Source: Paramecium tetraurelia (Eukaryota; Ciliophora; Oligohymenophorea; Peniculida; Parameciidae). From it: a stretch of DNA of 64,000 nt. Made by a program: the position numbers and the translations under genes. The DNA is taken from assembly GCF_000165425.1 (NCBI RefSeq), contig NW_001798989.1, positions 434,001 to 498,000 on the forward strand, written 5' to 3'. This document shows, piece by piece, positions 56,694 to 63,062 of this stretch. Position 1 is the first letter of the stretch; each line of letters opens with the position of its first letter. The notes below the pieces were generated by a model. It searched no databases. It had not been told where the DNA came from and saw nothing but the letters and a program-made list of their open reading frames with translations.

Positions 56694-59010
56694 TCAATCA
56701 ATTGATGAAACTAATGAATATATTTAATAGTAGACAGATTCCATTTGGTCTTGCGATTCATGTGTTTAATATTGTGCATCATATAAGATGTCGATTTATT
56801 CGATTAAGTCCTCATAAAGAGTGTTACATATTTGGTATTGTCCAATAAGGTTGATCTTGATCAATCTATTCGACAATTCTTAGATTTTATTTTATTTTTA
56901 TTTTAACTACTGCTTCTCTTCTTTTCTTTCCTTCAAGATTTCCTCATAATAAGGATAAGGAGTGATAAGCATAGGAGCAGAATCTTTTTAACTAAAATGA
57001 TTTAAGATGTCTTTCACTTTAACTCTTTATTGATCTTTCCCATTCTTTTTGTTTTTATAGATTTAATTTTAAATTTTCAATTCCTGTTATTTAACTTGAG
57101 CAAAGTTTTGCAACATTTGTTTGCCGATAACACCGTTTGTCTTTTTCTAAGTTTTGCTTTATTTAAGATGATCTATGATCTTCCTCACAGCCATTTTGAA
57201 CATTGCTCTATGTTTCCATTTCTTTTCTTATTAATGGCCAAAGATACTTCGCAATAGCCTTTTATGAATTTGCTAATAACTTTCTTTAATGACATTAGCT
57301 TTGAATTATTTTTCCAGCAAATACTTCTTATAAACATATTGAGTCATTGGATCTCCTTCAATTACATTGATTCTTTTCAGTTATTTTGCATTTTCTATAT
57401 AAATAAACTAAAATACTTTTAATCCTAGAAAGGTTCTCTTAGAGTAAAAGTTTCCTTCTTAACCCTAATTACTCAATTTCAAACAGCAGAGATTCATCAT
57501 CTTGAATTAATTATAAGAATTGTGAAATAGGACAGATTATTACCAAAGAATCTCTACAGGCAACTGCTGACTGTTTTCTATAACAATCTTCTAATATTTC
57601 GATTTCTCCAAATATGTAACCTTCTTATATATTTAATAATGTGTTCCCTTGTTCATCACATAGTCTTACTTCTCCTGAGACTAAGAAGTAGACATCCAAA
57701 CTTGGAGATCCATTGTAGTAGATAGTATCAAATTGTTTGAAATTGTACATTGTAAAGTAGGGTAGTATGGCTGCAGCGAAATTAATGTTGAAAGCAAACA
57801 TATTGACATTTTCAATCAATTGCTTTTGACAAAAGGCTATGGCAAAGATCTTTAATTAAGATGGCAATGTTTCTATTATCCTATGATTCTTATTTATAAA
57901 TACAATTTACTTTCTGTAATTCCAAAAAGGATTATTCTCAATGTTATATTAAAAGTAAGAAAATAACTGATTACTCAACTCTTCTGGAATTATGATTTTC
58001 TACACTAACGTTTCCAAGGCCTCCAAATCCTCTTCATAGCCATCTGTCGAAGATTGTTAGTCTAAGATATCTGCTAAATTCCCTATTGTTAATGAATAGA
58101 ATCCAACTCCTATGAATATCCAGATGATAGTTAAATTGTATTGCATTGAGGTCGTCAAAGGTATGTCTCCATAGCCAATGACGGTTACTGTTTAAATAGC
58201 CCAGTACAATCCTTAGATGTAGATGGAATAATTATTTTCTTTCTGTGCCAGTCCTTCATAAAGCAAAACTGAATGAAAGAGACACCCAAATAAACTAATG
58301 AAAATGAGCATGTTTTTGAATATTTTCAAAATACTTAAAATTTTGCCATCCAACTGAAAAAGTTTTTCAAAATATTCAGACTTTTCCAAAGAATTATGAG
58401 ATTCCTAATAAATTTATCTTTCGTTATAGCAGAAGTATTTTATGAATCTCAACAATTTGAGCAGATTTAATCCCATTAAATCAAAGAAAGTAGGGGCAAA
58501 TAATTTGTAGGGGATGATACTAATGATGTCGAAGATGAGCCATCTTTGCAGGTTGAATAGGAAGATGTCAAAAAAGTTGTTGATTAAATTGTAATTATTA
58601 TCTATTTGGCAAGTTATTTATTTTAAGATTATATCAATTAAATAGAGTGCATCCAACAAAAATGTAATTATTGTTAATGAATCCTAAATGAATATAAGAT
58701 TTATCTATACAAATTCGTTGAAATCAGAGAGACTTATGTAGATTGGGTAAAGCATTAGTGTGACTGCTGTTTAAAGCAACATGAATTGTTTCCACAAATA
58801 TAACTGGTCTGGGTAAAAGGGTAACTTTTACCGTTTTCTTTGGATCTATTTTGATTGAAATACATTTTCTTGTTTTTTTTGTTTGCTCAAATATCTGAAG
58901 AATTATTGGAGTATTGTTAATTTTCTAACAGCACTCCCAAATTTCATTTTGATTGGTTTTTCTTAAAAGCTATTAATGACATCGTCTTGATTGGTCTAAT
59001 CCTAAAACAT
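56694..59010 (-). CDS. voltage-gated-type K+ channel with cyclic-nucleotide-binding domain
   Basis: Six-TM potassium channel of the EAG/HCN/CNG superfamily. The start MFQDQTNQDDVINSFQEKP precedes S1-S6. The pore is GLYWAIQTVTVIGYGDIPLT with selectivity filter GYGD, so K+ selective. S4 is weak (LLKLLRFIKYFCYN, few Arg), suggesting modest voltage sensing. A C-linker follows (EALETLVQKIIIPEELSNQ), then a CNBD whose phosphate-binding cassette reads IFGEIEILEDCYRKQSAVA. The C-terminus is a Lys/Gln coiled coil. Intron boundaries were not all traced. The upstream start is uncertain because an open frame continues toward 59150 without an ATG. Paramecium uses many such channels in ciliary control. Confidence 0.85.
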
Positions 59011-59261
59011 AAATAAGCTGTGTTTTGGACTCAAGAATTGTCGATTGCTATTGGCACTAAAATTTAAATGAATGTGAACTTTTTTGGAGATTGAATGATG
59101 AGAGAAGTTTCTTTGGAGGTCTGCTTACTTTACCGTATTGAGTAAAATAGTTTTAGTGAACTACAATATTAAAAATGGTCTATTACTCTATTTCTGTTTT
59201 GTATTCTTTGAGGTCAATAGGAATTGAGCTACTTGGATGAACTTATCCAATACTCATTAAT

Positions 59262-61401
59262 ATGTTAATTATACTAATATATACAATAGCTCATTGCTTT
59301 TAAGCTGACAACACATATGTCACTCATGTATTTGACAAAGCCATCGAAAACAATTACACAAGGTACCCTGAACTCTTTGCAGTTCAAAATATTTATGATT
59401 CAGTCTCTAAATAAATAACTCTAAAAAGTAAACTATTATTCTAATTCTCAGACGGCAGAAAAGTCCTCTGTTAAATCCCCATACCCCAGATAACTTAGCC
59501 ATTTCAGCTCGACAAATTGACAATCGTAAGAAACCTCACCGATGAGGAAGTCAACCATATACTTTTTCCATTAGAAGATTAATGTGTGCAACATTATACC
59601 AAAGAATTCGTCTATGAGTATTGCTTCAAAAAATACATCCGTCAATTTGACGATCTGAATACCATGCTCAACATGAGAAAACAAGTACTTCATTTTTTTA
59701 CTAAAATAGTATAAAGAGGACTTCAGTCTTGGTATTTCCAAATCCTACCTTAGAGCTACTGATGAAACTAATGGTATTCATTAACCTGATCATGCCCTTT
59801 ACACACTTGATACTCATTACCATCAAATTATCAATTAAGTTGATTAATTGATCATCATTTCTGAATGCATTGCTAAATTGAGAAATTACACCAAAATTTT
59901 GTTAAAAAACTATGGATACAACCTAACTGTTAACACAATCACAGCAACTTATCATTTTGAAATTGCTCTTGTTATTCACAGTCAATTATTGTTGCTAAAA
60001 CAGTGTGCAGATCAAACCATAATTTCTGATTCCTTTGAATTTTAACCATTCGATGAAATTCAAGAGAGGATCCTACCCAATCAATATTACTAATATAAAA
60101 ACATCATATTTGGCATGAATCTCAGAGCCTAAGAAATGTTCCATCCCCAACAAAGTCTAGGTGTTGTCTTTACTGAGCATGTCCATATAGTTCAAGTTGA
60201 AAAAATTATAGATTTCTGTGCCATTCTTGTGTCTGGCAATTCCTTTAGAAAAAAACCAAAACCCATCTTCCAAATTAAGAACTTGATTTTGATGGATACC
60301 AATGCTGTCTATGTGGAAATGAAGAGACCTGTTTAGATTATTGAGAACATACTATTTTTCGAATGGGTAGATTAAATGGATATCAATGATTATGTAACTA
60401 TTTTTGAGAACTCAACTTCAGTTTTCAGTTATGTCGAAACCTTTAAAATAGTAGGGTATCAAAATGGCATGGCTACTTTGGATAAGTAACTAACAAAAGG
60501 TCTCAAGTATTCGGGCAAAGCCTTCATTAAAAGGAATGGCCAATTCAACTATGCTGAAAACATCACTCTCTTTTAATAGAACAACTCTGAGAGTACAGAC
60601 GAAGAATACTTGGATTTCTATAAAATTGAACATGATCAAATCCAACTCTACTTGTTTAATAACTCTTAATAAGGGATAAAGATCAAATAGGAATATCAAA
60701 ATTTCAATGGGATCACTTTTCATGTCAGTCCTTTAAAATCAGCTCAGGCTCCATCTTTATTTATTGACATCATAAGTCAAATGTATGAAGAGACACATAT
60801 ATCCTTTCTTACAGTTCCTTAACACACCATTTTTATCAAAAGCAAAAGCAGACCTTATAAATAAATGGAACCGAGATACATGAACAGTTCTATCATGAAC
60901 GAACAATATTGGATTATCATTGATACTCATACTGATAAATTATATATTGGAAATGAATATGAAATTGATCTGGTCAATAGAATGGTCGAATTTCAATTAC
61001 TGAGAATCAGAAACACAACTTCGCCAATCATTTTCGATTTCACCAAAAAATCAAATGAAGTTAAGGTACTGGATATTATGCTTTTACCTTTAAAAAACTT
61101 TCAGATTTTTCAAAGCAATTTCTTGAATGGCACCTACCATCCTCTAAATTACACTGGATAAGGATAAGGCCAATATTTTGAAAGCTATGATCAGGGAAGT
61201 TATTGCAAACCAATCAACTCGACTCGAAAGAGCATTGTGTAATTACGGTGTTACCCAGGAGACTTAATGAGGTTTCTATCGATATATGAGGAGGAAATTT
61301 GCCAGTATAAAATTAATATAGGCACATATCTCCTATGCGAGAATAATTAAGACATCGTAGAGCCTTCTGAATAACATATTATGTGTATATTAAATTAATG
61401 A
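59262..61401 (+). CDS. OS-9/YOS9-like ER lectin with MRH domain split by a large insertion
   Basis: A signal peptide (MLIILIYTIAHCFQADN) and 704 residues, with one 25-nt intron at about 59690-59714. MRH-type sequence appears in two places: near residue 110-165 (DQCVQHYTKEFVYEYCFKKY, then IRQF and EDFSLGISKS), as in the first strands of OS-9, and again at the very end (ESYDQGSYCKPI, RKSIVQLRCYPGD, IYEEEICQYKINIGTYLLCE), as in its last strands. About 450 residues of unrelated, beta-rich sequence (LDFYKIEHDQIQLYLFNN, YWIIIDTHTDKLYIGNEYEI) lie between. OS-9 recognises trimmed N-glycans on misfolded ER proteins for ERAD. The Tyr/Cys/Glu pattern of the second half is good; lectin activity is inferred. 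Confidence 0.7.
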
Positions 61402-61495: not shown

Positions 61496-63062
61496 ATGAT
61501 TGAAATCCCCAGAGATTACGAACAATTAAATTCATAATAGAGACTAGAGATATTGCAATTTTATGTACCTCCATTTTTGTATAAAACTAGTTCGAAACTA
61601 TTGTTTCAGAATATACATCGTTTAACCACTCTTAATTTATATATCCTCTTTATCAAACGTTTTAAGTCTAATTAAACCAACAAATGAGATCATTATCAAA
61701 TTAAGATGAAGTACTTTCTCTATCTATTTAGGTTTATGAATCATTTAAAAATCTTTAGAAAAAAGCCACGGAAGATTCCACAATCCAAGAGATGTTATTC
61801 GAATATGATGAATGTATTCCCTAAATTAAACTATCTTAGTCATTCATCCCATTAAAATCCAAGCTCTACCTAAATTAATAAAATAAAAATAAACAAAACC
61901 AAAAAGTGACAAAAAAGCAGCCAGTTGCATCCTAGACGAATAACCAATCAAGCATGAATTCATAATGACCGGCTCCTAATCCATGATGGTTAATTAAAAT
62001 AGGGACAGAGTCCGTAGTATATCCGAATTAGATGATGACTTAAAATTAAATGTGATTAGAGAGTTCGATGAGAAGAGTTACATTTCTTAAATTAATTTTG
62101 AAAGAAGTCCTCAAAGTGATTTGAAATCTGTCATTGAACAAAGAATGGAACAGTCCCAAAACCATTATTTCAATGAGGCTCAATTGGATGACGTAACTAT
62201 ACTCCTTAATTTTAGGCATACTATGTAATTCAATAGGCTAAGGCTGAGATTTAGAACAATCAACAATTAGAAGTTTGGTTCTAAGAAGTCTATGGAGATT
62301 TCATTGATATGATACAAGACAAATATGTCACCATGTAGCATAATCTCAATGAGTTAGATTCAGATGGATGGGTCATTGAAAAAAACACTAAATAATTAGT
62401 AATCAAATATAAAATTGACTCCAAAAATTCAACAGTAACTCTTTTTATGGATTCAGTCTTCGAAGCCAACATCACTAAATTAATGGCTTTAATCAATGAA
62501 ATTGAACTCTATCAAAATTATGTACCTTTTTGTGTCAGATCATCCATGCCTAAAAGGATCGGAAAATGTTGCAAGATTTGTGATATTCAAGTCTACTTTC
62601 CCTTGATCTCAGATAGGAAAGCTGTCTTTGTTGGAGAAGGCATCGATAGACTCAACATTAACGGAACCATTGTTTTTTTATGTAAATCTGTTGATAATAA
62701 TCCTGAATTTCTTAAATTACATAATGTAGATTTATCAAAGGATAAAGGAAAGTTTGTAAACTTGATACTTAATTATTATGTTTTTGAACTCACACCACTT
62801 AGTGATAATAAATGTAGAGTAAGGGCTGTTACTAATTCAGATCCTTAATGTAGATACGTTCCAAAAGCCTTGGTAGCACTTGTAGCTAGAAAAGTAATTA
62901 TAATGTATATCTTAGATGGCAAGCACCTTGTTTGAAAAAATGTAAAAGATTACCTAGAATTTCGCCAAAAGCCCCTGGTATCCAAAATATCTTGAAAATT
63001 AAGAATTTTATAATTGGATTGACAATAAAGTAACCAACCACTTTTCTAAACAATAAAATTGA
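61496..63062 (+). CDS. StART-like (SRPBCC-fold) domain protein
   Basis: Probable lipid-binding protein. The start MIEIPRDYEQLNSQQRLEIL is followed by a Gln/Ser-rich half (QQMRSLSNQDEVLSLSIQVY). Two apparent genes here (a stop at 61966 overlapping an ATG) merge when a 29-nt intron ending at about 61953 is removed. The second half carries a START-type pattern: VYGDFIDMIQDKYVTMQHNL, DGWVIEKNTKQLVIKYKID, NITKLMALINEIELYQNYV with PFC, then RYVPKALVALVARK and a C-terminal helix (STLFEKMQKITQNFAKSPWY). Introns of 20, 29, 23 and 22 nt are used. The ligand is unknown. Confidence 0.65.

Follow-up and report, generated by a model that had tools for sequence, protein, structure and literature searches.

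The lectin OS-9/Yos9 of yeast, mammals and plants reads a mannose that is exposed only after slow trimming, and the glycan acts as a clock. A gene of Paramecium tetraurelia, located in a window of 64,000 nucleotides (contig NW_001798989.1, positions 434,001 to 498,000 of the forward strand), encodes both halves of an MRH domain of this type, with several hundred residues between them. This locus raises the question of whether the two halves belong to a single interrupted lectin domain, are what is left of two domains, or have been brought together by an error in the gene model and, if the lectin is real, of what it might read and to what end.

Translated with the ciliate code (table 6), the lectin gene runs on the + strand from an ATG at 59262 to a TGA at 61401 and is interrupted by two short introns (59428-59451, 24 nt; 59685-59709, 25 nt). 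The original prediction had a single intron and a protein of 704 aa, which was not borne out, the 24-nt intron at 59428-59451 having been translated as 8 residues. This intron is a multiple of three and free of stops under table 6, and a frame-based reading cannot detect it; it was recognised because its counterpart in a duplicate gene has 23 nt, which is not a multiple of three, and reading through it meets a stop. The window protein is most likely 696 aa in length. The features of the gene are as follows.

59262..59427, + strand: exon 1a, hydrophobic N-terminus and start of the N-terminal region; edge set by means of the duplicate gene
59428..59451, + strand: intron of 24 nt (GTA...CAG); matched in position by a 23-nt intron of the duplicate
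59452..59684, + strand: exon 1b, N-terminal region (remainder) and the greater part of the first MRH half
59577..59769, + strand: first MRH half, residues 98-153 (PF07915; ERLEC1/OS-9 alignment), with the intron 59685-59709 inside it; carries C100, C113 and the putative sugar-contact residue Q120 (codon 59643-59645)
59685..59709, + strand: intron of 25 nt (GTA...TAG); matched in position by a 25-nt intron of the duplicate
59710..61401, + strand: exon 2, end of the first MRH half, entire insert, second MRH half and stop TGA
59773..61140, + strand: insert, residues 155-610 as cut here (excision and comparison with the duplicate); either edge may be off by 10-20 residues or more
61141..61350, + strand: second MRH half, residues 611-680 (PF13015; ERLEC1/OS-9 alignments); carries C632, C647, C664 and C676 and the putative sugar-contact residues R639 (61225-61227), E660 (61288-61290) and Y666 (61306-61308)

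By eye, the N-termini of the window protein and of the duplicate are hydrophobic, and the former may include a signal peptide. The 704-aa model held 13 N-glycosylation sequons; one sequon, NST, lies just before the putative sugar-binding Arg639 (residues 636-639, 61216-61227) and is kept in both paralogues, and a glycan on it, if present, would sit next to the predicted sugar pocket. The divergent neighbour on the - strand (57361-59253) encodes an ion channel (PF00520/PF07885) that also carries a cyclic-nucleotide-binding domain (PF00027); its open frame extends to 59253, adjoining the lectin ATG, and its first in-frame Met is near 59010. Downstream of the lectin gene, frames on the + strand at 61812-62935 have a counterpart beside the duplicate lectin gene, as judged by eye, and no Pfam match at E 0.01 was found for the piece 62192-62932.

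The duplicate lies on the - strand of another contig (G000:C109) and has the same architecture, an open frame and the same intron positions. It is a segmental or whole-genome duplicate, because the downstream reading frame is recognisably shared at both loci (by eye). The two proteins are identical at 350 of 691 residues, with 31/56 identical over residues 98-153, 213/447 (48%) over 154-600 and 54/96 over 601-696, so that the insert is nearly as conserved as the remaining protein. Both MRH halves and the insert align in register, and the split predates the duplication because the same layout is found in both copies.

In hmmscan searches of the 696-aa protein, the profile for the first part of the MRH domain, PF07915, matched residues 98-153 (E=7.2e-8, profile 1-57 of 74), and residues 601-680 were matched by PF13015 (E=1.3e-5, profile 63-132 of 154), where the original prediction had placed the two halves. 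Both matches exceed the Pfam cut-offs; in the duplicate, PF07915 is over its cut-off (35.2 bits) and PF13015 slightly under (21.3 versus 23). All six MRH cysteines (100, 113, 632, 647, 664, 676) are present and identical in both paralogues, as are the mannose-contact positions Q120, R639, E660 and Y666, which were aligned to ERLEC1 and OS-9. We take the Q, E and Y of MRH domains to be sugar-contact residues. The Trp pair of MRH domains has a role in alpha1,6 specificity. At its position before the first YExC both paralogues have Glu-Phe, where OS-9 has WW and the two domains of ERLEC1 have YW and WW; to judge from these residues, the replacement of the double tryptophan of OS-9 may change specificity. 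We treat the pair as a feature of specificity and not as a defining one, since ERLEC1 MRH1 also lacks it. R639 aligns with OS-9 R188, a change of which strongly reduces binding according to a passage of PMC7835635.

Excision of the insert in silico (residues 155-610, 456 residues) brought the two halves into one match. Against the PDB, a phmmer search with the unjoined protein (704-aa model) gave ERLEC1 at E=1.7e-4 through a best stretch in the second half (621-686), with 1.3 bits for the first half, and a search with the first half alone gave no MRH match; the joined protein gave ERLEC1 at E=4.2e-9 over a best stretch, 92-222, that crosses the join, together with OS-9 at 0.017 and 0.095. A profile made from the pair of paralogues behaved likewise: unjoined, it matched ERLEC1 at 2e-6 through the second half (best stretch 619-682), and, joined, it matched ERLEC1 at 8.1e-14, with both of its MRH domains aligned, followed by OS-9 (9og0, 0.004; 3aih, 0.011), 6f99 (0.34) and one unrelated chain (1.5). 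The OS-9 matches of the joined constructs are thus weak (E 0.004-0.095).

We also built an MRH HMM from three known segments (OS-9, ERLEC1 MRH1 and MRH2) and applied it to 1,292 excisions in each gene. For the window gene, cut at a fixed place, it gave 18.1 bits for the full protein, 9.8 for the first half, 22.3 for the second half, 28.3 for the joined construct and 18.8 for the halves in reversed order; the corresponding values for the duplicate were 20.2, 17.7, 23.9, 41.1 and 20.4 bits. When the first half was shuffled, 0/300 constructs in each gene reached the joined score, the maxima being 27.3 against 28.3 in the window gene, a thin margin, and 28.6 against 41.1 in the duplicate, a wide one; shuffling the second half gave maxima of 16.8 (window) and 20.7 (duplicate). 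The twelve best cuts per gene delete 445-455 residues. The best cut in the duplicate is 155/600 (47.1 bits), and those in the window gene are 125/575 (37.1 bits), 180/625 (35.3) and 155/600 (35.0), the first of which also deletes part of the first MRH half. Because these cuts form a ridge of nearly equal scores, the exact insertion point is uncertain by 10-20 residues or more. With the Pfam profiles, PF07915 in the window gene scored 33.7 bits in the whole protein, 35.5 in the first half alone and 38.3 when joined (then over the full profile, 1-74), and PF13015 scored 25.4 in the whole protein, 27.2 in the second half alone and 26.4 when joined (profile 34-132). Shuffling of the first half in the joined construct left PF13015 at 24.3 bits (profile 51-132), and in the duplicate the joined construct scored 37.2 bits with PF07915 (35.2 before joining) and 23.2 bits with PF13015 (21.3 before), with neither best stretch spanning the join. 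Taken by themselves, the Pfam scores are weak evidence for a single domain, because the gains on joining are modest and the shuffled control still reaches 24.3 bits.

Chance is an unlikely explanation, since the halves and the insert are in register in a paralogue that is about 50% identical and the joined score beats 300/300 shuffles of the first half in both genes. At the sequence level, the claim of a single MRH domain with a large insertion has good support from the match across both halves after excision, its loss when their order is reversed, the contribution of sugar residues from both halves and the same layout in the duplicate. We infer from these comparisons that the two halves would fold into one barrel from which the insert is looped out. 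The predicted model with one joined barrel that had been envisaged was not obtained: AlphaFold, run on exon 2 alone and without relatives, returned no confident fold (pLDDT 31.3, pTM 0.21).

The insert is about 445-456 residues long and, in the alignments with ERLEC1 and OS-9, lies after the '(Y/S)LG' strand and before the 'G(T/S)xC' segment, the site at which the lengths of OS-9, ERLEC1 MRH1 and MRH2 diverge more than anywhere else in the three-sequence alignment. Nothing points to exon shuffling, since the insert lies entirely inside exon 2 and no intron was seen within it. The original description of a large middle region of about 450 residues, resembling nothing recognised, agrees with our searches, which detected no relative outside the duplicate. 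Nothing convincing was found in the PDB (two nanobody sequences, E=2.5) or in NCBIfam, and the insert searched in six pieces against Pfam gave sub-threshold matches only, the best being PF14157 (E=0.012, 16.2 bits; cut-off 27). Scans by two short peptide patterns, which distant relatives could escape, gave no relative in viral contigs (with the pair of inserts) or in bacterial and archaeal contigs (with the full pair). In the genome of P. tetraurelia itself, the insert was found in the two lectin genes only. No internal repeats were detected, blastp returning the self match only and hhalign of three overlapping pieces giving nothing past the 10 columns that they share. A FAMeT-like stretch in the insert was suspected by eye; Pfam scans gave it no support. 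The best reading of the insert from these searches is a lineage-specific accessory domain placed in an MRH loop of variable length. Originally it was conjectured that the insert might stand in for the parts that bind HRD1/SEL1L.

The remaining genes of glycan assembly and quality control were sought in the same genome (69.07 Mb, 231 contigs) by six-frame, exon-level searches. Neither PF07915 nor PF13015 was found outside the two lectin genes. Alg6/Alg8 are present (E=5.6e-106, with further matches on another contig), and two contigs carry matches to the HRD1 N-terminal family. ALG3 was not found by this search of the genome, nor were GH47 mannosidases, the N-terminal family of glucosidase II beta (PF12999) or UGGT (PF06427), although for the last three the same search matched in no control genome; the catalytic family of UGGT (PF18404) gave one sub-threshold match only (E=0.09). 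One GT22 locus was found, which reads by motif as PIG-B-like rather than as ALG9/12; we take its motif to be of the PIG-B type, and, as it is the sole GT22 locus found, ALG9/12 would be absent from the genome. A table in PMC4973528 (Table 1) credits P. tetraurelia with Alg6, Alg8 and Alg10 but not with Alg3, Alg9 or Alg12, and a passage of PMC7003075 names Tetrahymena among the organisms without UGGT activity; no publication dealing with ciliate GH47 was found. Overall, the set for quality control of glycoproteins in the ER looks stripped: the searches found ALG6/8 and HRD1 but not ALG3, GH47 or glucosidase II beta, and gave a sub-threshold match for UGGT. This context alters what the lectin would have to read, a point that the original interpretation left aside.

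Several other accounts of this gene have to be weighed. The protein could derive from one with two MRH domains, like ERLEC1, of which only the front part of the first and the rear part of the second survive, without forming a common barrel. ERLEC1, the best match, does have two MRH domains, and both align to the joined profile; however, no MRH remnant was found in the insert, whose best scores (-3.8 in the window gene, -4.4 in the duplicate) were reached by 194/300 and 178/300 shuffles, and neither paralogue has lost any of the four residues that would make up one sugar site, Q in the first half and R, E and Y in the second. This account was rejected, as the MRH scores of the insert are no better than those of shuffles, and we hold it to be very unlikely. 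An artefact of gene model or assembly, or a pseudogene in which the insert joins unrelated pieces, is extremely improbable. The earlier model did misread one intron, but the second locus on another contig repeats the architecture, the open frame and the intron positions, has by eye a matching downstream neighbour, and shows the same split with an insert that is 48% identical, for which reason this account too was rejected.

It is also conceivable, though rather unlikely, that the split lectin serves a secretory step other than ERAD, for example as a partner of glucosidase II or in glycoprotein sorting. The N-terminal family of glucosidase II beta was not found in a genome whose only PF07915 and PF13015 domains are those of the two lectin genes, and a mannose-trimming timer would be impossible without GH47, although neither the PF12999 nor the GH47 search matched in any control genome. 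Against this, among solved structures the closest relatives are ERLEC1 and OS-9 and not glucosidase II beta, and the HRD1 family is present in the genome. By all that can be read from its sequence, the window gene is a real, conserved lectin with a split MRH domain, a variant of the OS-9/erlectin kind. Its product is probably an ER-lumenal ERAD lectin of the OS-9/erlectin type, with one MRH domain whose variable loop hosts an accessory domain of about 445-456 residues, and directed at terminal alpha1,6-mannose on Man5 glycans.

How such a lectin might work follows from the glycan that it would meet. OS-9 reads alpha1,6-mannose on the D3 branch uncovered by EDEM, as a passage of PMC6272264 has it, and the pocket of the Paramecium lectin would likewise bind terminal alpha1,6-mannose. 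Without ALG3 the D3 branch would not be built, and the core alpha1,6-mannose of Man5GlcNAc2 would be exposed on every N-glycan from the outset, so that trimming by EDEM would be unnecessary for the signal. The ligand is most likely Man5, always exposed, a proposal we make both because of this exposed core mannose and because Yos9, according to part of PMC7835635, interacts with Man5GlcNAc2 clients in alg3-lacking yeast. The lectin would then hand Man5 glycoproteins to the HRD1 complex, and the selection of misfolded clients would need a second contact, since the glycan would no longer mark time or folding state. In yeast, selectivity has been proposed, in a section of PMC9478403, to arise from a double contact, of the MRH domain with the glycan and of the Hrd3 groove with a flexible peptide. 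In Paramecium the second contact could be the SEL1L/Hrd3 groove, which would need nothing new, or, more boldly, the insert itself. On the latter proposal, which we regard as quite unlikely, the insert would be a novel lumenal domain that senses directly how clients are folded and replaces EDEM trimming and UGGT selection, lectin and sensor forming one interdigitated module in a lineage with Man5 on every glycoprotein.

An OS-9/erlectin-type lectin has thus been retained, and duplicated, where ALG3, GH47 and an above-threshold UGGT were not found by our genome searches. If the glycan is Man5, the signal would be permanently on, as in alg3-lacking yeast, and the discrimination of misfolded from folded glycoproteins becomes testable in a natural system, with the insert as a concrete candidate for telling such clients apart. 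The joined barrel, if true, would be an extreme case of domain insertion within a small disulfide-bonded lectin fold. Among the titles and abstract openings listed from the open-access literature, we found nothing on a split MRH domain or on OS-9 of Paramecium or Tetrahymena, which does not imply that these are unpublished.

Among known systems, the window protein matches the MRH domain of the OS-9/erlectin family once the insert is excised, and partially without excision. In neither paralogue is the domain uninterrupted, the insert being of about 455 residues, and because of this interruption we file the protein as a variant of the OS-9/erlectin kind and not as a plain member; nor is it an erlectin with two MRH domains, as it has one set of halves and no MRH remnant was found in the insert. 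With glucosidase II beta (PF13015/PF07915 families) it has in common the match to the MRH profile; glucosidase II beta, however, has a PF12999 N-terminal part, for which hmmscan gave no match in the window protein, and was absent from the PDB matches of both the joined and the unjoined constructs. OS-9/Yos9 (PDB 9og0, 3aih) shares with it a single MRH domain near the N-terminus and an Arg at the position of OS-9 R188, but the MRH domain of OS-9 is unbroken, has Trp-Trp in place of Glu-Phe, and is followed by a long chain (100-229 of 612 residues), whereas about 20 residues follow the MRH domain of the window protein. ERLEC1 (erlectin, XTP3-B; PDB 8kes, 9uav) shares with it the MRH sequence over both halves, the six cysteines and the Q/R/E/Y residues; it has two unbroken MRH domains and lacks the insert of about 450 residues, whereas the window protein has one split MRH domain, and among the three aligned MRH segments it is ERLEC1 MRH1 that has the longest loop at the site of the insert.
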